Source: a virus
Length of the DNA: 47,918 nt
Direction: 5' to 3' (one strand)
Virus record (IMG/VR): IMGVR_UViG_3300006923_000037
Coordinates: 1 to 47,918 of that record
Notes under the pieces: model-generated
The model's database searches: none
What the model was told of the DNA's origin: nothing
What the model saw: the letters and a program-made list of their open reading frames with translations, nothing else
Translations under genes and position numbers: made by a program
In this document: positions 3,087 to 12,106 of the stretch, one piece after another
How the letters are laid out: the number at the start of each line of letters is the position of its first letter
Numbering within the stretch: position 1 is the first letter of the stretch

Positions 3087-3628
3087 TGGTTGTTTAATCT
3101 TTTCATTAACTTATTATATATTTCTTCATCTCTTTCTTTTTGATGAGATTCATGAAGGCGAGGTTGTGATGTGTTTTTCTTGGATTCTTCTTGCGCGCCC
3201 TGGTCCGATGCCTCTACTTCCTCTGTATCGTCGTCCTCGGGGGATTCCTCTGTCGGCTCCTGATCTTCTGAATTTTCCCCTGTTAATAGATCTCTTAATA
3301 AGGTTACTCCAGTTTCCAAAGCTTTTCGCGTGTCGCCGGGTGTTGCTTTTACCTTTTTTGCAACCACTCGAATCTTATCTGAAACTTCAAGTCCTTCCAC
3401 TTGTTTCTTTGCTTCTTCTGATGATGCACCATTTTCCTCAAAATGTTTTTTTGCATGCATCTCTAAAAAAGCTTCTATGGGGTCTTTTTTTGATGATGTT
3501 AATCCTTTCACTCTTTTAAAAGCAGGAGATATTTTATTAAAGAAATCTTTAATTCTTCCCTCTTCAAGTTCGTCTGTTCTTGCTTCTATGCTTTCTCTGA
3601 GAAGTTTTTTAAAATCTTGGTTATTCAT
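3083..3628 (-). CDS. Acidic hypothetical protein with conserved-looking terminal helices
   Basis: The 181-aa product starts MNNQDFKKLLRESIEARTDELEEG, an amphipathic helix of a type seen at the N-termini of several phage virion proteins. It has a helical middle (about 25-115) and then a very acidic, probably disordered linker (about 116-150, rich in Glu, Asp, Ser). It ends with RDEEIYNKLMKRLNNQ (166-181), similar to the tail of the downstream peptidase. The gene overlaps both neighbours by ATGA junctions. The architecture, two terminal recognition helices around an acidic linker, suits a scaffold or adaptor, but no family is recognised. Confidence 0.75.
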   Translation of the reverse strand: MNNQDFKKLLRESIEARTDELEEGRIKDFFNKISPAFKRVKGLTSSKKDPIEAFLEMHAKKHFEENGASSEEAKKQVEGLEVSDKIRVVAKKVKATPGDTRKALETGVTLLRDLLTGENSEDQEPTEESPEDDDTEEVEASDQGAQEESKKNTSQPRLHESHQKERDEEIYNKLMKRLNNQ

Positions 3629-3849
3629 GCTTCTTGTTCCTTAATACGCAGTACCTCTAATAAATAGTCTCTAGTAACTTTATCTTCGAATAGATAGATC
3701 GTTGCTGCTGGTAATAATTTGTTAGCCATTTTAGCATCGTATATTTTTAGAATAACTCCTGCTCCAAACTTATCCTTTATAAGAGGTTTTGTATATACTA
3801 TATCTCCCACTTTAAACTTTTCTTTTAATTCTTCTCCGATTAATTTCAT
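3625..3849 (-). CDS. Small SH3/KOW-like hypothetical protein
   Basis: The 74-aa product has the pattern KVGDIVYTKP...GAGVILKIYD...IYLFEDKVTRDYLLEVLRI, typical of a small SH3-like or KOW-like beta barrel. Such barrels bind proteins or nucleic acid; nothing more specific can be said. It overlaps the YkuK-like gene upstream and the acidic protein gene downstream by ATGA junctions, so all three are probably translationally coupled. Confidence 0.7.
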   Translation of the reverse strand: MKLIGEELKEKFKVGDIVYTKPLIKDKFGAGVILKIYDAKMANKLLPAATIYLFEDKVTRDYLLEVLRIKEQEA

Positions 3850-4307
3850 TTGGAGTGTTTATCCGCAACTGAAGAAGACGCCCAAGATTCGGGTTTGAGT
3901 TTATATTTAAATCCAGAGCCTCTGGTATACCCAACTAGCATATTAACAAACTTGTTGGTATATGCACCTTCTTTTGGGTTAATATCCAGATGTAACTCAA
4001 TGTTAATGTCTGGTATTTCTTCTGTAAGCAAATTTCCAAGTTCTATTGTCATTTCTACTTCGTGAAGAACACGAAGCATTATAGTTGGAAATTTATCTGC
4101 AAGTTTACTGTTTCGTTTGTAAAAGTAAATGCCGCCCGCTTGTTCTCTTGCTCCGTGTAAACAGATGCTGCTAGCAAACACACAGTCTGTCCTGCTTTTT
4201 TGGCTATCACACCCAATATATACATTAGCACCCTTTTTAGAATATTCTTTAGTGATACTAACAACTTCTTCAAATGATATCTTTTTCCCATTTCCAGTTA
4301 ACCACAT
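3846..4307 (-). CDS. YkuK/DUF458-family RNase H-like protein
   Basis: The 153-aa product fits the predicted RNase H-like family typified by Bacillus YkuK (DUF458). It has an N-terminal strand with an invariant-type aspartate (VYIGCDSQKS, about residues 29-38), a central LHLDINP strand with a second acidic residue (about 108-114), and a C-terminal signature, KPESWASSSVADKHSK (about 138-153), almost the same as the family's KPxSxAxSSVADKHT ending. The length also fits. By family, the fold suggests a metal-dependent nuclease, though the biological role of YkuK proteins is not established. Here it sits in a coupled operon, 2 nt after the upstream stop. Assignment to the family is confident; activity is not. 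Confidence 0.85.
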   Translation of the reverse strand: MWLTGNGKKISFEEVVSITKEYSKKGANVYIGCDSQKSRTDCVFASSICLHGAREQAGGIYFYKRNSKLADKFPTIMLRVLHEVEMTIELGNLLTEEIPDINIELHLDINPKEGAYTNKFVNMLVGYTRGSGFKYKLKPESWASSSVADKHSK

Positions 4308-4309
4308 CT

Positions 4310-4657
4310 TTATTCTTCATAAGGATTAAAATCCCGAGAATCTACATGCTTTACGCCTTGGGTTTTCATTGCATCTAACATTTGGTGAGTATATTGTACT
4401 TGCTGTGAAATGTTTGGCAGCACAGTAGTCATTATATATTCTAGTTGAATTTCTGAAACATTTCCTGCTTGGTAATCAGCTACAATATCTCTTTGTAGTT
4501 GCTGAAGAAGTTGGTATGTTTGGCTGCTATATTTATCAAACTTAGTTATGTCTTGTTTTATTTCGGCTGCCTGGGCATCACCGTATTGAGGATATCTTTC
4601 AGATAAGAGTTCCTGGTTTGCCTCAATAACTAATTCTTTAATTTGTTTTTTGTTCAT
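4310..4657 (-). CDS. Small helical hypothetical protein
   Basis: The 115-aa product starts MNKKQIKELVIEANQELL. The ATG at 4657 is preceded by a perfect GGAGG site with 5 nt spacing, so it is preferred over a TTG five codons upstream. The protein is almost entirely helical and Gln-rich (TYQLLQQLQRDIVADYQAG, then LPNISQQVQYTHQMLDAM) and is probably a coiled coil. The N-terminal helix resembles those of other virion-associated proteins in this operon. The gene ends 2 nt before the YkuK-like gene. No family is recognised. Confidence 0.75.
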   Translation of the reverse strand: MNKKQIKELVIEANQELLSERYPQYGDAQAAEIKQDITKFDKYSSQTYQLLQQLQRDIVADYQAGNVSEIQLEYIMTTVLPNISQQVQYTHQMLDAMKTQGVKHVDSRDFNPYEE

Positions 4658-4685
4658 TTGGGCCTCCAACAATAACTAGTCTTGT

Positions 4686-5009
4686 TTAGTTATAACCTAT
4701 CTGTTTAATATATTTTAAAGGAATCTCTGCATAGCCTCGTGGTATATTATCTGAAACTATTTTAACATATCCTTCTTCATCTGGAGCATCTGTTATTAAT
4801 ACCTCCATTCCTGTATAAATTCTTATCATTTTCTTGGTTGTATTATCCATAATCCATATTTCTTTTAAATCATCTGGTAAAATAATAATTTGATATGGAA
4901 TCGGAGGATCCGTCCCATCATTCATTGTTAAAACGTCTTTATAGAGTATTTCAACGTATTGTAATATAAAGTTCTGAATTTCTGGCTTTATTTTTGTACT
5001 CAAAATCAA
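4686..5009 (-). CDS. Hypothetical protein with a UUG start
   Basis: The 107-aa product has a helical N-terminus (EIQNFILQYVEILYKDVL) followed by a beta-rich C-terminal part (KKMIRIYTGMEVLITDAPDEEGYVKIVSDNIPRGYAEIP) that resembles a small SH3-like barrel. The start is TTG: AGGAGG lies 4 nt before the TTG at 5009 and 10 nt before another TTG at 5003, so either may be used. The region just upstream encodes a 20-codon frame that overlaps this start as TTGA. A -1 shift at its end would join the two into one longer protein. Confidence 0.65.
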   Translation of the reverse strand: MILSTKIKPEIQNFILQYVEILYKDVLTMNDGTDPPIPYQIIILPDDLKEIWIMDNTTKKMIRIYTGMEVLITDAPDEEGYVKIVSDNIPRGYAEIPLKYIKQIGYN

Positions 5010-5068
5010 GGCGCCTCCTCGACAAAGTAAGTAGGAGAAGGTGCATCGAATAGAGTTATTTTATCCAT
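5006..5068 (-). CDS. 20-codon coupled mini-gene or frameshifted N-terminus of the next gene
   Basis: An ATG at 5068-5066 overlaps the stop of the upstream gene as TAATG and opens a 20-residue frame starting MDKITLFDAPSPTYF. It ends with a TGA (5008-5006) that overlaps the next gene's TTG start as TTGA. The two overlaps make it look translated. Its last codons contain the AGGAGG site of the next gene. It may be a true mini-protein, a coupling leader, or the displaced N-terminus of the next protein after a -1 shift (programmed or an assembly error). Confidence 0.45.
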   Translation of the reverse strand: MDKITLFDAPSPTYFVEEAP

Positions 5069-5286
5069 TAAATGATTTCTGCTCTTCTTGTCGCCTCGTC
5101 TAGAGCCTCAATATGAGTCTCATAATACTCTGAAATTTCTTTATTACGATATTTCTTGTAATACCACTTTCCCTTATTAGGGCCTATCTTAACTTTTTTA
5201 ACAACCAATTTTGGTTCTAAGTTAAGACTTTCAAAGTGATTTGCGTTTTTGTATTTCCAGCTAGGGTATGTATCTTTTTCTTCCAT
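5068..5286 (-). CDS. Small basic hypothetical protein (possibly leaderless)
   Basis: The 72-aa product starts MEEKDTYPSWKYKNANHF and contains KIGPNKGKWYYKKYRNKEISEYYETHIEALDEATRRAE, a Tyr/Lys-rich beta-hairpin-plus-helix layout that suggests a small nucleic-acid-binding protein, without a known family. An earlier in-frame ATG at 5304 lies between the -35 and -10 boxes of a strong sigma70 promoter, so it cannot be used from that promoter. The ATG at 5286 coincides with the expected transcription start. No Shine-Dalgarno site precedes it, so the mRNA may be leaderless. Its stop overlaps the 20-codon frame downstream. Confidence 0.65.
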   Translation of the reverse strand: MEEKDTYPSWKYKNANHFESLNLEPKLVVKKVKIGPNKGKWYYKKYRNKEISEYYETHIEALDEATRRAEII

Positions 5287-5292
5287 GTATAT

Positions 5293-5321
5293 AATATAAC
5301 ACATATATTGTAAAAAGTCAA
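5293..5321 (-). promoter_or_regulatory. Sigma70-type promoter
   Basis: TTGACT (5321-5316) and TATATT (5298-5293) are separated by 17 nt on the minus strand, each one mismatch from consensus. Transcription would start at about 5286, on or beside the ATG of the small basic protein. This is one of three near-consensus host-type promoters in the window. Confidence 0.75.
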
Positions 5322-5346
5322 GAAAATAAACATATTTTCAATAAAA

Positions 5347-5642
5347 TGGTGGAGGTGACAGGACTCGAACCTGCAATCTTCTGCATGCCTACTAACTATA
5401 AATTTCTTTACCAACATTGTTGTTTGTAGTCTGGACTTTCTCTCAACCATATCATAATGACTTAGGCTATTCCCGTCAAGTCTCTACACCTGCCTTATAT
5501 AAGGATTGGCTCGGGATTGCCATCAGCTTCATCTGTTAAGGTTTCCCCGAATTTGAGAATATATGCAACATAACATTTCTATTATGAGGCTCGCATTTTA
5601 GTTGGTTTAAGGCAGATGCTTCCCCGATTAAGCTACACCCCC
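5347..5642 (-). tRNA. tRNA-Ala(UGC), split by a group I intron
   Basis: The 5' exon is 5642-5609 and the 3' exon 5388-5347. Joined, they give a 76-nt tRNA with encoded CCA. The acceptor GGGGGUG pairs with CACCUCC and includes the G3-U70 wobble recognised by alanyl-tRNA synthetase, and the discriminator is A73. The D stem is GCUU/AAGC. The anticodon stem UCUGC/GCAGA encloses loop CUUGCAU, giving anticodon UGC. The variable loop is AGAUU, and the T stem GCAGG/CCUGU encloses UUCGAGU. The intron lies between U34 and G35 of the anticodon. Without the intron the gene is intact and should be functional; it would read GCA and related alanine codons. A late-promoter-like element (5662-5671) lies 19 nt upstream. 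Confidence 0.95.
5389..5608 (-). other. Group I intron (IC3-like), 220 nt, in the tRNA-Ala anticodon loop
   Basis: The 5' exon ends in U and the intron ends in G, as group I splicing needs. The internal guide AUGCGAG (5596-5590) pairs GAG with the exon's CUU (P1, with the U-G wobble at the splice site) and AUGC with the 3' exon's GCAU (P10), which fixes both splice sites. P3 is AUUCUC (5560-5555)/GGGAAU (5474-5469). P4 is UCGGG (5550-5546)/CCCGA (5515-5511). P7 is GACU (5482-5479)/AGUC (5437-5434). Hairpins CAUAA/UUAUG (P2), CCUUA/UAAGG (5504-5493) and CAAC/GUUG (P9) are also present. Core strings such as GUGUAGAGACU..GACGGG and GGCAAUCCCGAGCC resemble bacterial tRNA introns (Anabaena tRNA-Leu, Azoarcus tRNA-Ile) as I recall them. 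It encodes no protein. Confidence 0.93.
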
Positions 5643-5650
5643 TTTAAGTG

Positions 5651-6193
5651 TCAAGCTTGTTTATAAATAGTGTTAATAAAACCAGAAACATATAAATTAA
5701 TTTTTTCTTCTATTAGCATTTTATAACGACTATGAATATATCCATGGTGAGTTGGACATAGTGGTACCAAATTGCTTGGTATATTATTGTGATGGTTTAA
5801 ATCATAATGATGTACCGCTACAATTAAATTTTCTTTACATATTATACATTCTTTTTTATGATATTTGAAACATATAGCTCTATAGTGTTTTGTTGTATCA
5901 TAATGAAAAGGTTGTATTTCTTTAATGCCTCCTATTTTTTGTGATATATCCTTACACTTTCTTTCACAAAAGAAAAGGCCACTTTTTGACGCTCTTTTTT
6001 TAGATTCAGACTTGTAAAATAATTTATCACAGTTTGCGCATTTAACATTTGGTTCTTTTAATTTTTTGTTTTTACTTCTCCATTCTCCAAAACATTTTCT
6101 TCCACAATATTTTCCATAACCTCTCCTCGCTTCTTTTAATAATACTTCAAATTCTTTTTCACAATTTTGGCATTTTTTAATCATTGTTAGCAT
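5651..6193 (-). CDS. HNH homing-type endonuclease
   Basis: The 180-aa product has two N-terminal Cys-pair modules (CQNCEKEF...YCGRKC and CANCDKLF...FCERKC, about residues 8-80), likely zinc-binding DNA-recognition units. The C-terminal HNH nuclease contains CIICKEN, VHHYDLNHHNNIPSNLVPLC and THHGYIHS (about 115-155): the first His pair, central Asn and final His match the beta-beta-alpha-metal active site. The architecture is that of free-standing phage homing endonucleases. The gene ends 8 nt before the intron-containing tRNA on the same strand. It may therefore cut intronless tRNA-Ala genes and drive spread of the intron and itself. A second in-frame ATG at 6184 is an alternative start; neither has a strong ribosome site. 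ACTATTTATA lies 26 nt upstream. Confidence 0.85.
   Translation of the reverse strand: MLTMIKKCQNCEKEFEVLLKEARRGYGKYCGRKCFGEWRSKNKKLKEPNVKCANCDKLFYKSESKKRASKSGLFFCERKCKDISQKIGGIKEIQPFHYDTTKHYRAICFKYHKKECIICKENLIVAVHHYDLNHHNNIPSNLVPLCPTHHGYIHSRYKMLIEEKINLYVSGFINTIYKQA
5662..5671 (-). promoter_or_regulatory. Candidate late promoter element for the tRNA-Ala/intron
   Basis: ACTATTTATA on the minus strand lies inside the last codons of the HNH gene and ends 19 nt before the first base of the tRNA. It has the orientation and spacing of the other seven elements, so the tRNA may have its own late start. Confidence 0.5.
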
Positions 6194-6219
6194 TTAAAAT
6201 TAATCCTATATTCTAATAT

Positions 6220-6229
6220 TATAAATAGT
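6220..6229 (-). promoter_or_regulatory. Candidate late promoter element for the HNH gene
   Basis: ACTATTTATA on the minus strand ends 26 nt before the HNH gene's first ATG, in the 150-nt divergent gap between the minus-strand operon and the PIN-PhoH gene. The rest of this gap (6194-6343) holds the PhoH ribosome site and no further gene I can support. Confidence 0.55.
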
Positions 6230-6343
6230 TCAGTGGAACATATTTTCCTTGCGCAAAATAATAATATTTCCTTAATATTAAACAGTAACTCGTAAAGCAG
6301 ACAACTACTTACATCGAAACATTAAACCTCGGAGGTACCAAAC

Positions 6344-7651
6344 TTGAAAAAAACTTACATACTTGATACTAGTGTTTATTTAACAGATGCAGAATCCATT
6401 TTCCAGTTCGAAGATAATAATATTGTTATACCCATAAAGGTTTTAGAAGAACTGGATAAACATAAAAATAGACAAGATGGAGTCGGCCTCCAAGCAAGAA
6501 AACTAATTCGAACTCTGGATGATCTAAGAAATGTAGGATCGCTTAGAGAGGGTGTTGTTTTGAATGAATATCAAGGAATTGTAAAAGTTATGGCTCACAG
6601 TCCTGAATTATTACCAAAGGATTTAGATCTTAAGCATGCTGATCATCTTATAATGTCGACGGCGCTAGCGGCGCAGAAAGAAACAAGTGAAGAAGTTGTA
6701 GTTGTGACTTGCGATATTAATATGAGAGTTATCAGCGATAGTTTGGGACTTAAAGTCGAAGAATACACTGCTAACAGAGTAATAGATAAAAGAGATAACC
6801 TCTATAGTGGATATTCTGAGATTATTGTCGATGCAGATATCATCGATGGTTTTTATGCTGGAGAAGAAGTCTTTTTAGATCTCGAAGATTGTAAACCAAA
6901 TGAGTTCTTAATTTTAGTATGTTCTTCGGATGAAAAGAAAAGTGCATTAGCAAGATATACTAACCCACACACTCCTTTAAGAAGGCTTCCAACGGACCTT
7001 AAAAAAGGAATATGGGGAGTATGTCCGAGAAACAAAGAACAGATGTTTGCTATGGATTTATTATTGGATCCAAATATTAAAGTTGTATCACTGGTAGGTG
7101 CACCAGGAGCAGGCAAAACTCTTATTGCTTCCGCCGCTGGATTAGAACAAACTCTAACGCTTGGTACGGGATCTTATAAGAAAATACTTATTTCTCGACC
7201 TGTTCAGCCCGTAGGAAAAGATATTGGTTTTCTTCCTGGTACATTAGAAGAAAAAATGCTTCCCTGGCTTAAACCAATTCAAGATAATCTTCAATATTTA
7301 CTTGGTTCTGATGAAGCAACCCTAGAGATGTATATGGATAAGAAAACAATTGAGATTGAGGCAATCAGCTTCATTCGCGGACGAAGTATTCCAGATTCTT
7401 TTATTATTATTGATGAGTGTCAAAACATTACTCCTCATGAAGTAAAAACTATTTTAACAAGAGTTGGAGAGAACTCAAAAATAGTATTAACTGGAGATAT
7501 TGAGCAGATTGATAATATTTATATTAATGAACTTACAAATGGATTAACTCATGCTGTTGAGCAGTTCAAGGAATACGGAATTGCTGGACACGTCACTCTC
7601 AAAAAGGGAGAAAGATCAGAAGTTGCAACCCTTGCAGCGAAGATCTTGTAA
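6344..7651 (+). CDS. PIN domain-PhoH ATPase
   Basis: The 435-aa product has an N-terminal PIN nuclease domain (about residues 1-150; ILDTSVY with Asp8, VLEELDKH with Glu35/36, ADHLIMSTAL and TCDINMR) and a C-terminal PhoH-type P-loop ATPase. Walker A is GAPGAGKT (252-259) and Walker B FIIIDECQN with Asp357/Glu358; TRVGENSKIVLTGDIEQID is the sensor region. This is the full PhoH2/YlaK-type architecture, proposed by family to couple RNA unwinding with RNase activity. The start is TTG at 6344, with a GGAGG site 8 nt upstream, and matches the usual N-terminus of the family. It is the first rightward gene. PhoH proteins are frequent in marine phages, but their role in infection is unsettled. Confidence 0.93.
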   Translation: MKKTYILDTSVYLTDAESIFQFEDNNIVIPIKVLEELDKHKNRQDGVGLQARKLIRTLDDLRNVGSLREGVVLNEYQGIVKVMAHSPELLPKDLDLKHADHLIMSTALAAQKETSEEVVVVTCDINMRVISDSLGLKVEEYTANRVIDKRDNLYSGYSEIIVDADIIDGFYAGEEVFLDLEDCKPNEFLILVCSSDEKKSALARYTNPHTPLRRLPTDLKKGIWGVCPRNKEQMFAMDLLLDPNIKVVSLVGAPGAGKTLIASAAGLEQTLTLGTGSYKKILISRPVQPVGKDIGFLPGTLEEKMLPWLKPIQDNLQYLLGSDEATLEMYMDKKTIEIEAISFIRGRSIPDSFIIIDECQNITPHEVKTILTRVGENSKIVLTGDIEQIDNIYINELTNGLTHAVEQFKEYGIAGHVTLKKGERSEVATLAAKIL

Positions 7652-7654
7652 AAT

Positions 7655-7676
7655 GTTGTCAAAAGAATTTGACAAC
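7655..7676. promoter_or_regulatory. Perfect 9-bp dyad overlapping the -35 box
   Basis: GTTGTCAAA (7655-7663) and TTTGACAAC (7668-7676) form a perfect inverted repeat with a 4-nt AGAA loop. The right arm contains the TTGACA -35 box of the next promoter. It could be an operator, or the stem of a weak terminator for the PhoH gene; no T-run follows it. Confidence 0.6.
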
Positions 7677-7697
7677 GGGCAAAAAGGATGCTATACT
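7669..7697 (+). promoter_or_regulatory. Sigma70-type promoter for the metallopeptidase gene
   Basis: A consensus -35 TTGACA (7669-7674), a 17-nt spacer and TATACT (7692-7697) predict transcription from about 7704. An ATG follows at 7705, and a better ribosome site (GGAG, 7769-7772) precedes an ATG at 7780. Confidence 0.8.
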
Positions 7698-7779
7698 ATA
7701 TAAGATGTTTAATAAGAAGATTAAGATAGATGGTAATGTTTATCATTTAGAATACTTAAAATACTCTTGGAGAAATAAT

Positions 7780-8427
7780 ATGACAGAGAATAAAGAATAT
7801 AAGTTAAATAATATTAATATTTATATAAAAGATAATTTTAAAAATAAGATTGATCTTAATAATGTAATTGATCAGTTGAAAACAACTTTACCAGACAGTA
7901 TGTTTGAAGAAATAGATTCAATGTATATTGGAGAGTTTGAGATGTTAATCAATCATGATTTGAATGCTCTTTATAAAGATGGAGCAATATATATCAGTAA
8001 TGTTCAAGATAATGAATCAGATTTATTAGATGATATCATTCATGAAACTGCTCATTCTTTAGAAACAAAGTATTCTTTTCTAATTTATGGAGATAGCAAG
8101 ATAGAAGATGAATTCATAAGAAAAAGAGTTAAGTTAATGAAGATTTTAGAAGAAATGGGTTTTAAAACAAATCAAGCTTTATTCATTGATTCAGAATACT
8201 CAAAGGAATTAGATGAATTTCTTTATAAAGATATCGGTTATGAATTATTGAATGTAATTTTCTCACAACAAGGTATTTTTACTTCTCCTTATGCAGCAAC
8301 CTCTATAAGAGAATATTTTGCTACTGGATTTGAATATTACTTCTTAGATGAAAGAAAATACCTCAAACAAATTAGTCCAGCCCTATTTACTAAAATAGGG
8401 GAAATTCATAAAGAATGTACAATATAA
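7780..8427 (+). CDS. HExxH metallopeptidase, lethal-factor-like (ATLF-type) active site
   Basis: The 215-aa product has the zinc motif HETAH (residues 88-92) followed about 85 residues later by SIREYFATGFEYYFL, where Glu178 or Glu185 would be the third ligand. This spacing and the E(Y/F)FA...YY pattern recall the anthrax-lethal-factor-like (ATLF) peptidase fold; that family call is tentative. The ATG at 7780 is chosen because a GGAG site lies 7 nt upstream. A frame-matched ATG at 7705, directly at the predicted transcription start, would add 25 residues (starting MFNKKIKIDGNVYHLEY) by leaderless translation. The strong promoter suggests early or middle expression, so host proteins are plausible targets. 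The next gene starts inside its last codons. Confidence 0.75.
   Translation: MTENKEYKLNNINIYIKDNFKNKIDLNNVIDQLKTTLPDSMFEEIDSMYIGEFEMLINHDLNALYKDGAIYISNVQDNESDLLDDIIHETAHSLETKYSFLIYGDSKIEDEFIRKRVKLMKILEEMGFKTNQALFIDSEYSKELDEFLYKDIGYELLNVIFSQQGIFTSPYAATSIREYFATGFEYYFLDERKYLKQISPALFTKIGEIHKECTI
8381..8400 (+). promoter_or_regulatory. 8-bp hairpin next to a gene start
   Basis: CCCTATTT (8381-8388) and AAATAGGG (8393-8400) pair perfectly around a 4-nt loop near the end of the metallopeptidase gene, 14 nt before the next ATG. The right arm holds the only G-rich sequence (AGGGG) before that ATG. Folding could hide the ribosome site unless ribosomes translate the upstream gene. Confidence 0.4.
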
Positions 8428-8849
8428 TAATTAAAGAATCTTATAAGAGAATAAGTTCTGAAACAGTAAATGAAACAGTTCTAGTAACAGTTGAAATGGC
8501 ACCATACGAAAAAAACTATCAACCAGTCAGGATGTCATGTACAAAGAGTGAAGTCTCTCAATGGTTAAGAGATAATAATATTGAAGTTGGTAAAATGACT
8601 TATGGGCACAACTTAAATAATGTTAATAAAGGCTTGTGTGCTGGAAGATTTGAATTTAATTTACCAGAAAAAGAAATAATTATTGAAAAACCACTTGACA
8701 AACCAGCAAAAGATGTTATATTATATAATGAACAAGAACAAGTAGAGATCACAATTGACAACAACAAAAAGTCAAAACGTAAATCAAAAAAATCTTCAAA
8801 GTCAAAAAAGAAAGCACATAAGCTTCTCAGAAATGAGAATTTGGTCTGA
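8415..8849 (+). CDS. Hypothetical protein with a Lys/Ser-rich tail
   Basis: The 144-aa product has a folded-looking N-terminal part (about residues 1-90; ETVLVTVEMAPYEKNYQPVRMSC, then EVSQWLRDNNIEVGKM) and a short linker. The tail (about 115-136) consists mostly of Lys and Ser and is very basic. No family is recognised; a basic tail of this sort may bind nucleic acid. Its start overlaps the metallopeptidase gene by 13 nt, and its 3' end overlaps the nuclease gene by 95 nt in the +1 frame. The long overlap is unusual here. It may reflect coupled expression, or a split of one longer protein. Confidence 0.65.
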   Translation: MYNIIIKESYKRISSETVNETVLVTVEMAPYEKNYQPVRMSCTKSEVSQWLRDNNIEVGKMTYGHNLNNVNKGLCAGRFEFNLPEKEIIIEKPLDKPAKDVILYNEQEQVEITIDNNKKSKRKSKKSSKSKKKAHKLLRNENLV

Positions 8850-9576
8850 ATGTGCTTATAAACATAAACTTATATATCTAGATAAAATTAAAGAATTTAA
8901 GGGTAATGAATTCACAGCCTTTGGTACTGCGGTTCATACTGTTTGTGAAAGTCTTCTATTAACAGAAGATATTAATACAGAAGTTCTGTTTGAAAAAGAA
9001 TTTGAAAGAGAGTTAATTTCTTTACCCTCTGATCTTGAATTAAGAGAAGATTTAATTCGTCAAATGGAAACACAGGGAAGAGACATCCTACCAGAAGTAC
9101 TCCCAGCAGTTAAAGAGTACTTTGGAGAATACGAAGTAGTTAATACAGAAGAAGAACTCTATGAACTCATCGAAGCCTTCGGAGACGATAACAACTTCAA
9201 AGGCTTTATTGATTTAGTAGTTAAAACCGCAGATGGCAAATACCACATTATTGATTGGAAAACATGTAGCTGGGGTTGGAATCTTCAAAAACGAACTGAT
9301 AAACTTATCACTTATCAGTTGACGCTTTACAAGCATTTCTTTGCTAAAAAGCACAACATTGATACAAAATTAATAGAAACTCATTTTGCACTTCTTAAGA
9401 GAACCTCTAAAAAAGAAAGAGTAGAAATTTTCAGAGTAACCAGTGGTGAAAAGAAAACTGATAATGCTATGGCTCTCTTAGAAAAAGCAGTTAATAATAT
9501 TCAGAGAAACAGACATATTAAAAACCGCTTATCATGTGCAAAATGTGAGTTTCATAAAACTAAACATTGCCCATAG
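8755..9576 (+). CDS. Cas4/RecB-like PD-(D/E)XK nuclease with an Fe-S cluster motif
   Basis: The 273-aa product has the RecB/Cas4 nuclease order: an N-terminal ISFSEMRIWSECAYKHKL segment with Cys33, the motif AVHTVCE with His61, Asp153 in GFIDLVV, and Asp167-x-Lys169 in IIDWKT. It ends with three cysteines (261, 264, 272). One N-terminal and three C-terminal cysteines are the signature of the 4Fe-4S cluster of Cas4/AddB-type nucleases. By family it would cut or resect DNA. No CRISPR array or other cas gene is present, so a phage recombination or DNA-processing role is more likely than adaptation. The only plausible start is TTG at 8755, because the first ATG (8833) would remove conserved residues; the ribosome site is weak. 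A GT gene follows after 12 nt. Confidence 0.85.
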   Translation: MTTTKSQNVNQKNLQSQKRKHISFSEMRIWSECAYKHKLIYLDKIKEFKGNEFTAFGTAVHTVCESLLLTEDINTEVLFEKEFERELISLPSDLELREDLIRQMETQGRDILPEVLPAVKEYFGEYEVVNTEEELYELIEAFGDDNNFKGFIDLVVKTADGKYHIIDWKTCSWGWNLQKRTDKLITYQLTLYKHFFAKKHNIDTKLIETHFALLKRTSKKERVEIFRVTSGEKKTDNAMALLEKAVNNIQRNRHIKNRLSCAKCEFHKTKHCP

Positions 9577-9588
9577 GATAAACAATAA

Positions 9589-10860
9589 ATGTCAGAGAAT
9601 AAGAAAATAAAAATACTAATGTTAGGAGATTCTCCTTTCGCACCTTCTGGAGTTGGAACACAATTAAAATATATTTGTGAAGCCCTCCTTAAAACAGGTA
9701 AGTTTTCAATCATTAACCTCGGAGGAGCACTTAAGCACGCTAGTTATAAGCCTCAGAGAACAGAAGAATACGGAGAAGACTGGACAGTCATTCCAGTAGA
9801 CGGATACGGAACACAAGAAATGATTCGTTCTGCTATTTGGACAGAGAAACCAGATCTATTATTCTTTATGACCGACCCAAGATACTGGGCTTGGTTATGG
9901 GAAATTGAAAACGAGGTCCGACCCCACATTCCGATGGTTTATTATCACGTTTGGGATAACTATCCATATCCACATTATAATAATAAATTTTATCAGTCTA
10001 CAGATGTTGTGTTTAACATCTCGAAAGTAACTCACGATATTGTTACAACGGTATCTCCAAACGTAGAAGCACATTATTTACCACACGCGGTTAACTCAGA
10101 AGTCTTCCAAGCTTTCCCAGAAGAAACAGTACAGGAACTTAAAGAACAACACTTTGAAGATGATCAGAGATTTACATTCTTTTGGAATAACAGAAATGCA
10201 CGACGCAAGATGAGTGGAAGTCTTGTTCATTGGTTTAACGAATTCGCAGAACAAGTTGGACCAGAGAACGTAAGACTCATTATGCATACTGATCCAAAAG
10301 ATAAGCATGGCCAAGACTTAGCTCACATTATTAATCATCTTGAAGCAGATGATGGCAGAATCATGTTATCAACTAAAAAGATTCCACCCGAGGCCCTAGC
10401 TGTAATGTATAATATTTCAGATTGTACAATCAATATTTCAGATGCAGAAGGGTTTGGTTTGGCGACACTGGAGTCTTTGTCCTGTGGTACTCCAATCATT
10501 GTGAGTATGACTGGTGGACTTCAAGAACAGGTTACAGATGGCAAGAAGTGGTTTGGGATTGGTATTGAACCAGCATCAAAAGCAATTATCGGATCACAGT
10601 CCGTTCCATACATTTATGAAGATCGTGTTTCGAAAGAAGATTTTATTAATGCTTTAAGAGAAATGTATAAGATGTCCAAAACAAAAAGAAAGAAAATGAT
10701 TTCTCAAGGAAGAAAACACGTTGCTAAAAACTATAATTTTGAAGACTTCACTAAACGATGGGTTGATGAAATCACATCTATCCACGAACGTCACGGCTCT
10801 TGGGAAACAAGAGAAGGCTATGAAGCTTGGGAAATTAAGGAGGTAGGAAATGTCAATTAA
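9589..10860 (+). CDS. GT4-family glycosyltransferase
   Basis: The 423-aa product has the GT-B fold layout. The N-terminal Rossmann domain begins with a strand and Gly-rich turn (ILMLGDSPFAPSGVGTQL). The C-terminal nucleotide-sugar-binding domain carries DAEGFGLATLESLSCGTPII (Asp285, Glu287), the E-x7-E type motif of retaining GT4 enzymes. It would transfer a sugar from an NDP-sugar to an unknown acceptor in the host cytoplasm. The gene is the first of the glycosylation island, starts 12 nt after the nuclease gene, and overlaps the next GT gene by 11 nt. Acceptor and sugar cannot be read from the sequence. Confidence 0.88.
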   Translation: MSENKKIKILMLGDSPFAPSGVGTQLKYICEALLKTGKFSIINLGGALKHASYKPQRTEEYGEDWTVIPVDGYGTQEMIRSAIWTEKPDLLFFMTDPRYWAWLWEIENEVRPHIPMVYYHVWDNYPYPHYNNKFYQSTDVVFNISKVTHDIVTTVSPNVEAHYLPHAVNSEVFQAFPEETVQELKEQHFEDDQRFTFFWNNRNARRKMSGSLVHWFNEFAEQVGPENVRLIMHTDPKDKHGQDLAHIINHLEADDGRIMLSTKKIPPEALAVMYNISDCTINISDAEGFGLATLESLSCGTPIIVSMTGGLQEQVTDGKKWFGIGIEPASKAIIGSQSVPYIYEDRVSKEDFINALREMYKMSKTKRKKMISQGRKHVAKNYNFEDFTKRWVDEITSIHERHGSWETREGYEAWEIKEVGNVN

Positions 10861-12106
10861 GAGAATTTTAATCAGAGGTCCAATTTTAACATCTTCGGGA
10901 TATGGAGTACACGCTAGAACAGTATATCGTTCACTGGCCAAACGTCCAGACTTATTCAAATTGTATGTGGTACCAGTTAACTGGGGTCAAACTGGCTGGA
11001 TTTCAGAAGACACACAAGAGCGCAAAGATCTAGATAAGATTATTGCGGAGACTCAAATAGCCATCAATAATAAAGAACACTTTGATATTTCACTACAAGT
11101 CACAATCCCAAATGAATGGGAAAGGCTAGCTCCAGTTAATATTGGTATTACAGCGGGAATTGAAACAACAAAGGTTGCACCAGAGTGGCTACAAAAAGCA
11201 AATGAGATGGATAAAGTGATCACCATCTCAGAACACTCAAAGAATGTATTCGAGGATACAGTTTATACAGGTCAACATCCAGAAACTGGTGAAACTGTAA
11301 CTCTAAGCTTAAATACCCCCATCGAGGTAGTAGGATATCCAGTAAAAGAACATGAAGTAATTGATCTTGGATTCAAACTAGACTATGATTTCAATTATCT
11401 AACAGTTTGTCAGATGGGCCCTCGAAAGAATCTTGGTACACTTATCCAATGGTTCTGCGAGGAGAACTTCGATCAAGAGGTTGGACTAGTTGTTAAAACC
11501 TCGATTAAGAAGAATAATAGAATCGATAGAGAACATACAGAAGAAATGTTGGAGGTTGTATTAAATAACTTCCCAAATAGAAAGTGTAAGGTATATCTCT
11601 TACACGGAAATATGAATGAACAAGAAATGAATTCTCTATATAATCACCCTCAGATTAAATGCTATACAAGCACAAGCCATGGAGAAGGCTTCGGGCTTCC
11701 TATCTTTGAAGCAGTATACAATGCAATGCCTGTAATCGTTCCAGGATGGTCGGGACAATGTGACTTTCTTTATGTTCCAGATCCAAAGAATAAGAAGAGA
11801 AATAAACCCATGTTCGCAAGCGTAGAATACGATTTACAGCCTATTCAAAAGGAAGCTGTTTGGGATGGTGTTCTAGTGGCCGATTCTATGTGGTCTTTCG
11901 CCCGAGAAGGGTCCTTTAAGCGACGTTTACGAGAAGTCCGCACTGGGTATGGGAATTGGAAGAAGAAGGCTCAGAAACTACAAAAATGGGTAAAGAAAGA
12001 ATTCAGTGAAGAAGTGATTGATGAGAAATATATGAGTGGGGTTTATAATCCAGATCCGGATGTTGAGGAGTTGTTTAAAAGTATATCAGAGATGGAAGGA
12101 CTATAA
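10850..12106 (+). CDS. GT4-family glycosyltransferase
   Basis: The 418-aa product is a second GT-B glycosyltransferase. It has an N-terminal ILIRGPILTSSGYGVHARTV turn, the CQMGPRKNLGTLIQWF segment that starts the C-terminal domain, and SHGEGFGLPIFEA (Glu279 to Glu287 region) followed by MPVIVPGWSG. It resembles its upstream neighbour in layout, so the two may have arisen by duplication or act one after the other on the same glycan. The ATG has a good AAGGAGG site about 7 nt upstream inside the previous gene, and the genes overlap by 11 nt. Confidence 0.87.
   Translation: MSIKRILIRGPILTSSGYGVHARTVYRSLAKRPDLFKLYVVPVNWGQTGWISEDTQERKDLDKIIAETQIAINNKEHFDISLQVTIPNEWERLAPVNIGITAGIETTKVAPEWLQKANEMDKVITISEHSKNVFEDTVYTGQHPETGETVTLSLNTPIEVVGYPVKEHEVIDLGFKLDYDFNYLTVCQMGPRKNLGTLIQWFCEENFDQEVGLVVKTSIKKNNRIDREHTEEMLEVVLNNFPNRKCKVYLLHGNMNEQEMNSLYNHPQIKCYTSTSHGEGFGLPIFEAVYNAMPVIVPGWSGQCDFLYVPDPKNKKRNKPMFASVEYDLQPIQKEAVWDGVLVADSMWSFAREGSFKRRLREVRTGYGNWKKKAQKLQKWVKKEFSEEVIDEKYMSGVYNPDPDVEELFKSISEMEGL

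Follow-up and report, generated by a model that had tools for sequence, protein, structure and literature searches.

A free-standing HNH endonuclease gene beside an intron-split tRNA-Ala gene of a phage: a candidate collaborative-homing pair

Why does a free-standing endonuclease gene adjoin a phage transfer RNA (tRNA) gene that is split by an intron with no nuclease of its own? The question is raised by the IMG/VR virus record IMGVR_UViG_3300006923_000037, whose 47,918 nucleotides (positions 1 to 47,918) are the stretch analyzed here, hereafter the window. On the minus strand, an open reading frame (ORF) at 5651-6193 encodes a 180-aa HNH endonuclease; its stop codon is followed by an 8-nt spacer (5643-5650) and then by G1 of a tRNA-Ala(UGC) gene on the same strand (5347-5642). 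The 5' exon of this gene (5609-5642) runs up to U34, an ORF-less group I intron of 220 nt (5389-5608) lies in the anticodon loop between U34 and G35, and the 3' exon (5347-5388) includes an encoded CCA. The ORF map and the sequence bear out the first-pass annotation of this DNA, in which a same-strand HNH gene ends 8 nt ahead of the tRNA, and ORFs, Rfam and ARAGORN agree with its further statement that the HNH gene lies outside an intron lacking its own nuclease. The finding is real, and it is more general than that annotation knew. As the best explanation of the locus we propose that gene and intron probably form a pair of the collaborative-homing type at a tRNA gene. The proposal has more support than expected, from the layout, the linkage of the HNH family to tRNA isotypes, the joint presence or absence of intron and HNH gene in a pair of sister phages, the enrichment of HNH genes at split tRNAs, and the altered anticodon arms of most intact carriers of two isotypes.

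We propose that the HNH enzyme would most likely target the anticodon-arm region of the tRNA-Ala(UGC) gene in phages that lack the pair. The group I intron would interrupt the target site in the carrier's own gene and leave the carrier uncut, and splicing of the intron from the transcript would allow tRNA-Ala still to be made. Should a carrier encounter a relative without the intron, the resulting break would be repaired from the carrier copy, and the repair would copy intron, HNH gene and tRNA 5' half across as one tract. From sequence comparison we infer cleavage, the position of the cut, splicing, protection by the intron and the direction of transfer.

The split tRNA gene is easily overlooked. 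A plain ARAGORN run found no tRNA in the window; with introns allowed, ARAGORN reports a tRNA-Ala(tgc) gene interrupted at position 35 by a 220-nt intron, and the exons were placed from this call and the exon comparison described below. The intron matches the Rfam group I model RF00028 with 43.7 bits (E 6.2e-10, 501 bases given), a score below the curated gathering score of 50, and a gathering-level Rfam scan missed it. When the window intron is aligned with 17 other phage tRNA introns (18 sequences), a common core (P3-P8 region) emerges, and 29 of 43 consensus pairs show compensatory changes. The group I hallmarks, a U at the end of the 5' exon and a G at the end of the intron, are present. 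The best DNA match among those found for the intron is the tRNA-Leu(UAA) intron of L003 (LR756501, a 735-kb phage), with 72.5% over 167 bases; there, the tRNA-Leu(UAA) gene at 3991-4211 is interrupted by a 205-nt group I intron.

The HNH protein matches PHROG 1271, 'HNH endonuclease' (E 4.9e-15), and a Pfam scan gave no HNH model at E<=0.01 and only a sub-cutoff zinc ribbon. Across eight aligned family members the residues C52, C55, C76, C80, C116, C119, H128, H129, N141, C146, H150 and H154 are invariant; the His-Asn-His catalytic motif and the zinc-binding cysteines are present in the window protein and unchanged in its relatives. The invariant alignment columns place the HNH core (CxxC...HH...NL...C...H...H) at residues 116-154, that is, at 5732-5848 on the minus strand.

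What does a close relative without the pair look like? A PhoH search led to a sister contig, IMGVR_UViG_3300031861_000003 (L134), which is 97.8% identical to window positions 6298-12077 and 95.9% identical to 3558-5388. The tRNA-Ala(TGC) gene of L134 is uninterrupted, the HNH gene is absent from its whole 60-kb record, and window positions 5389-6297 are replaced in it by 70 nt (L134:5885-5954). When the joined window exons are compared with the L134 tRNA, 10 of 76 positions differ, all of them in positions 13-48 (the probability of at least 10 differences in 36 positions at 2.2% is 4e-9), and none in 49-76, so that the T arm and 3' end are identical. Because the differences are confined to positions 13-48 and intron and HNH gene are both absent, the HNH gene, the tRNA 5' half and the intron constitute one exchanged tract of ~0.9 kb that ends inside the tRNA. 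By BLAST blocks and exon differences, the tract differing from L134 covers window positions 5375-6297, to which no strand applies, and includes part of the 3' exon, the intron, the 5' exon, the HNH gene and the region upstream of it. A one-tract exchange with an end inside the tRNA is the picture that would be expected of homing with co-conversion. The window keeps the TG..CA stem of tRNA-Ala and has the intron; L134 keeps the stem without the intron, and it is the predicted sensitive relative.

The same comparison accommodates a history of loss, in which the pair is old in the lineage and L134 lost both members by recombination with an ordinary tRNA-Ala gene, so that present-day homing is not implied. 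Two genomes cannot tell gain from loss, and the next relatives at the PhoH locus, L135 and L136, carry other tRNAs there. The GC content of the HNH gene (26.7%, versus 36.1% for the window) fits a recent arrival, weakly. We consider loss somewhat unlikely; it is in any case compatible with collaborative homing as the origin of the pair.

The main rival to collaborative homing holds that the HNH gene homes alone into tRNA-Ala loci, by intronless homing with a cut in or beside the tRNA gene, and that the intron rides in the converted tract and protects nothing. We regard this as unlikely, and the case for it lies in the breadth of the HNH family and in the precedent of SegB, a free-standing enzyme of the GIY-YIG type that, according to the available text of PMC13096335, can home at tRNA genes. 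Searches with the HNH protein and the family alignment covered named phages, 80 IMG/VR loci, chosen as the best among 274 confirmed stretches, and 12 loci from metagenome-assembled genomes, nine of which are weak and without a tRNA. The family so defined comprises 69 distinct proteins from 89 loci, with L226-L234, L006, L011 (same contig as L207), L138 and L141 left out. At the default ARAGORN threshold, 62 of the 69 proteins have a tRNA within 150 nt: the neighbor is tRNA-Ala(UGC) for 25, tRNA-Pro(UGG) for 22, both for 2 and another isotype for 13, with none for 7; the split tRNA of the window itself was assigned manually to Ala. In a tree of 68 rows (one was left out for length), the Ala and Pro labels require 8 changes each, versus shuffled means of 21.8 and 18.9, and none of 500 shuffles was as low. 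The window HNH sits in a supported set of 16 rows, 13 of them Ala, and a second HNH subfamily is tied to tRNA-Leu(UAA). The link between HNH gene and tRNA is therefore general, mostly found without introns, and it occurs at either side of the tRNA and in either orientation. The nearest relatives of the window HNH, L143-L146, adjoin intact tRNA-Ala genes; since relatives stand beside intact tRNAs, the HNH gene does not require the intron.

Many of the Ala-linked relatives have the stop codon of the HNH gene within the first bases of the tRNA, and thus the tRNA sequence supplies it. For example, in L154, L156, L160, L166, L167, L172 and L178 the protein ends in ..KWG with an 8-nt overlap with the tRNA-Ala 5' end. 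At the relaxed ARAGORN threshold, L158 has a tRNA-Ala(TGC) call on each side of its HNH gene, perhaps the trace of an insertion with duplication. A motif match in L033 was rejected as a false HNH, and the ARAGORN 'introns' beside the HNH genes of L155, L160 (and three copies), L173 and L208 were set aside, as no Rfam group I intron was found in them at E<=0.05; in L155 and L160 the tRNA-Ala is also intact by eye.

The view that the intron is a mere passenger is opposed by the recurrence of the layout at split tRNAs of several isotypes. A search with the P7 core of the intron returned at least 119 stretches, and 71 of the 100 distinct P7 cores among the matches listed, the set on which the following counts of split tRNAs are based, lie in a tRNA that ARAGORN calls split, mostly Leu(UAA); we take the 'Tyr(ata)' calls to be Leu-type genes whose splice point was shifted. 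With L024 and L054 (over-long intron calls) left out and the window not counted, a model-based check of 69 split phage tRNAs placed an HNH gene from one or other subfamily within 200 nt in 17 cases, the Leu model having been trained in part on HNH genes beside split tRNAs; with 600-nt margins the count is 15 of 56. The layout thus recurs in other phages. By ARAGORN label the 17 tRNAs are Leu (11), Tyr(ata) (3), Ser (2) and Thr (1), some of these labels being regarded as mis-set. The HNH gene is placed 3' of the tRNA on either strand, or 5' of it, which indicates several independent arrangements. By comparison, it stands within 200 nt of none of 27 intact tRNA-Leu(UAA) genes from samples that had not been selected for Leu, which is the fair control, and of 1 of 112 intact tRNA-Ala(UGC) genes. 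A pattern sample of further intact tRNA-Leu genes gave 0 of 110 and is a biased control, because its consensus-arm pattern excludes altered arms (intact genes with an HNH neighbor match it in 0 of 29 cases). The Fisher p values, 8e-4 for Leu-type genes (15/51 split versus 0/27 intact) and 2e-8 for all split tRNAs versus 1/139 intact, are too small because the loci share ancestry. A search with the Leu-linked subfamily returned 80 loci with 70 distinct proteins, 13 beside a tRNA called split (two rejected), 40 beside an intact tRNA and 17 without a tRNA. The split calls at L372 and L418 were discarded, as an intact tRNA is called at the same place.

How, then, would HNH carriers with an intact tRNA avoid cutting themselves? 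If the enzyme recognizes the region of the anticodon arm, carriers would have to conceal their own copy, and the arms suggest how. The consensus tRNA-Leu(UAA) arm RGACTT|AAAATCY is found in 14 of 14 split genes with an HNH neighbor and in 26 of 28 that lack such a neighbor; among intact genes it is found in 17 of 26 that lack an HNH neighbor and in 5 of 29 that have one (p 4e-4 between the two intact classes). Restricting the comparison to genes with a normal Leu-type D arm leaves 2 of 8 intact genes with an HNH neighbor versus 11 of 13 without (p 0.018), and other isotypes in the Leu loci show no shift (canonical D arms in 15/34 versus 63/147). Similarly, the TG..CA stem of tRNA-Ala is present in 2 of 25 HNH-Ala loci and in 12 of 25 control loci not chosen for Ala (p 0.004); by gene, it is present in 3 of 31 HNH-linked genes versus 58 of 95 in a T-arm-selected sample, a count that leaves out L186, L194 and L206. 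Within its clade the window is exceptional in retaining the stem, and its gene has the intron. Intact Leu and Ala carriers thus tend to be without the consensus arm and split carriers keep it, a pattern that argues against a passenger intron. The altered arms of intact carriers are as expected if immunity can be had without an intron, and insertion of an intron seems to be one of two means by which a target is hidden. Anticodon-loop mutations in phage tRNAs have been proposed as an escape from host tRNA-cutting defences (PMC10264068, available text); such escape could contribute to the arm changes and would not explain the link to HNH genes. We note that nine loci (L361, L373, L377, L382, L388, L395, L400, L424 and L433) have, beside an HNH gene, a UAA-anticodon tRNA-like gene with a short variable arm, an odd shape for tRNA-Leu.

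These observations lead us to a broader hypothesis, which we advance tentatively and with rather less assurance than an even chance would warrant: phages may harbor an HNH nuclease family whose members target tRNA genes in an isotype-specific way (Ala-UGC, Leu-UAA, Pro-UGG and others) and whose carriers hide their own tRNA with an anticodon-loop group I intron or by rewriting the tRNA. If this is true, masking against HNH nucleases would drive phage tRNA turnover, odd tRNA shapes and the spread of introns, an arms race within tRNA genes.

Besides the shared ancestry of the loci and the two-genome limit on direction, several results weigh against collaborative homing. Most HNH genes in both subfamilies adjoin intact tRNAs, and among the other 68 distinct proteins of the window's HNH family we found no neighboring tRNA split by an intron, the window being the only Ala case. 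The co-occurrence of intron and HNH gene that the first-pass annotation proposed to look for in relatives is seen in one sister pair, as one tract, and not for those 68 proteins. The same annotation held that relatives keeping the HNH gene with an uninterrupted tRNA would refute the pairing; taken literally, that is what we see, and we retain the model because most of the intact tRNA-Ala and tRNA-Leu neighbors have lost the consensus anticodon arm. For tRNA-Pro, no difference in the anticodon arm separates HNH carriers from controls (p 0.30). The D arm of HNH-linked tRNA-Ala is canonical in only 7 of 25 cases (p 0.085 versus the same controls), so the change in the altered genes is not confined to the anticodon arm. 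Conservation of the arm in split genes is partly expected anyway, since the intron needs its exon sequence. Finally, the P1 helix of the window intron, read by eye, is short (CUU/GAG), and the single-strand fold of the split tRNA gene is no more stable than shuffled sequences (z -0.79).

Could the nuclease serve chiefly as a weapon that damages tRNA-Ala genes in rival phages or in the host, with homing as a by-product? The anticodon arm of the L134 tRNA-Ala is close to a bacterial consensus, as such a role would have it, and nothing in the sequence comparison points to action on host DNA. According to the available text of PMC11620839, phage PhiPA3 engages in interference competition by means of an intron-encoded endonuclease. 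We judge this role improbable. Chance neighborhood, in which homing genes of many kinds would gather in the tRNA regions of large phages and the intron would spread by reverse splicing or ordinary recombination, is very improbable: HNH genes are common in phage tRNA clusters, and 52 of the 69 split tRNAs have no adjacent HNH of these families, but such an HNH stands beside at most 1% of intact tRNA-Ala and tRNA-Leu genes, HNH clades are tied to isotype, and the sister pair differs by a single shared tract.

An intron-encoded homing endonuclease is reportedly aimed at a tRNA anticodon region; the target would be held in common, and the window gene is free-standing instead. The term collaborative homing was introduced for F-CphI and the psbA intron of cyanophage S-PM2; according to the available text of PMC6083498, self-cleavage is prevented there by the intron, which owes its mobility to the free-standing enzyme. 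The subject is also treated in PMC3984707, PMC2988022 and PMC10448857. Like that system, as far as its description there extends, the window has an ORF-less group I intron in a target gene and a free-standing endonuclease gene adjoining it, with the intronless relative as presumed target and the intron as presumed shield. The two differ in that the gene is a tRNA gene here and a protein gene there, the enzyme is an HNH of the PHROG 1271 type here and has an Endo VII motif there, cleavage is a prediction from sequence here, and intronless relatives here are apparently shielded by changed tRNA sequence. Likewise, the terminase intron of ICP1 adjoins a T5orf172 homing endonuclease gene that lies outside it, in a protein gene and with another nuclease family (PMC10448857, available text). 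SegB of T4 and T6 is, like the window enzyme, a free-standing homing endonuclease beside phage tRNA genes; as presented in the available text of PMC13096335 and the T4 review PMC2988022, it cuts in tRNA genes and has a GIY-YIG fold, no reported isotype preference and no intron partner. The window protein matches HNH families only and no GIY-YIG family; it would resemble SegB in its working and is not a SegB-type member. The intron recalls the small group I introns in the anticodon loop of cyanobacterial and plastid tRNA-Leu(UAA), so far as our sources describe them, and differs in residing in a phage tRNA-Ala(UGC) gene with a nuclease gene alongside.

According to the available text of a 2014 review, all phage group I introns then known lay in protein genes, despite the many phage tRNA genes (PMC3984707). 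A claim to the first interrupted phage tRNA, a case of 2.5 kb, was made in 2017 by authors who themselves consider it a possible artefact (PMC5746245, available text). The available texts of a 2025 survey of Bastillevirinae introns (PMC11878797) and of a mycobacteriophage intron paper (PMC3706429) contain no tRNA intron paired with an HNH gene, and a literature search covering few subscription journals and preprints returned no report of phage tRNA group I introns paired with HNH genes or of isotype-tied HNH families. Contrary to the 2014 picture, group I introns in tRNA genes turn out to be frequent among phage contigs, often with a nuclease gene as partner. Should the nuclease cut the tRNA gene, the pair would offer a testable answer to how tRNA introns without a nuclease move, a reason for the divergence of some phage tRNA genes, and a set of isotype-specific DNA cutters.

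Several further introns and genes were encountered. In Klebsiella phage Muenster (L006:3906-4154, minus strand) a tRNA-Met(CAU) gene, unannotated in the record, is split by a group I intron (104 bits), and the same part of the query also matches its near relatives KP13-7 and RCIP0023; the HNH near this intron belongs to another family and does not abut the tRNA, and it was rejected as an instance of the same layout. In L003, an ORF of 256 aa at 7180-7950, GIY-YIG-like in its motif by eye, adjoins two tRNA-Leu genes. The marine podovirus record Chosvirus KM23C739 (L005) has group I introns at 3949-4129 and 3240-3420 near 'capsid protein' coding sequences. Finally, in the window itself, positions 7669-8427 encode a 252-aa protein with weak, below-cutoff Pfam matches to the metallopeptidase-type families ATLF and M90.
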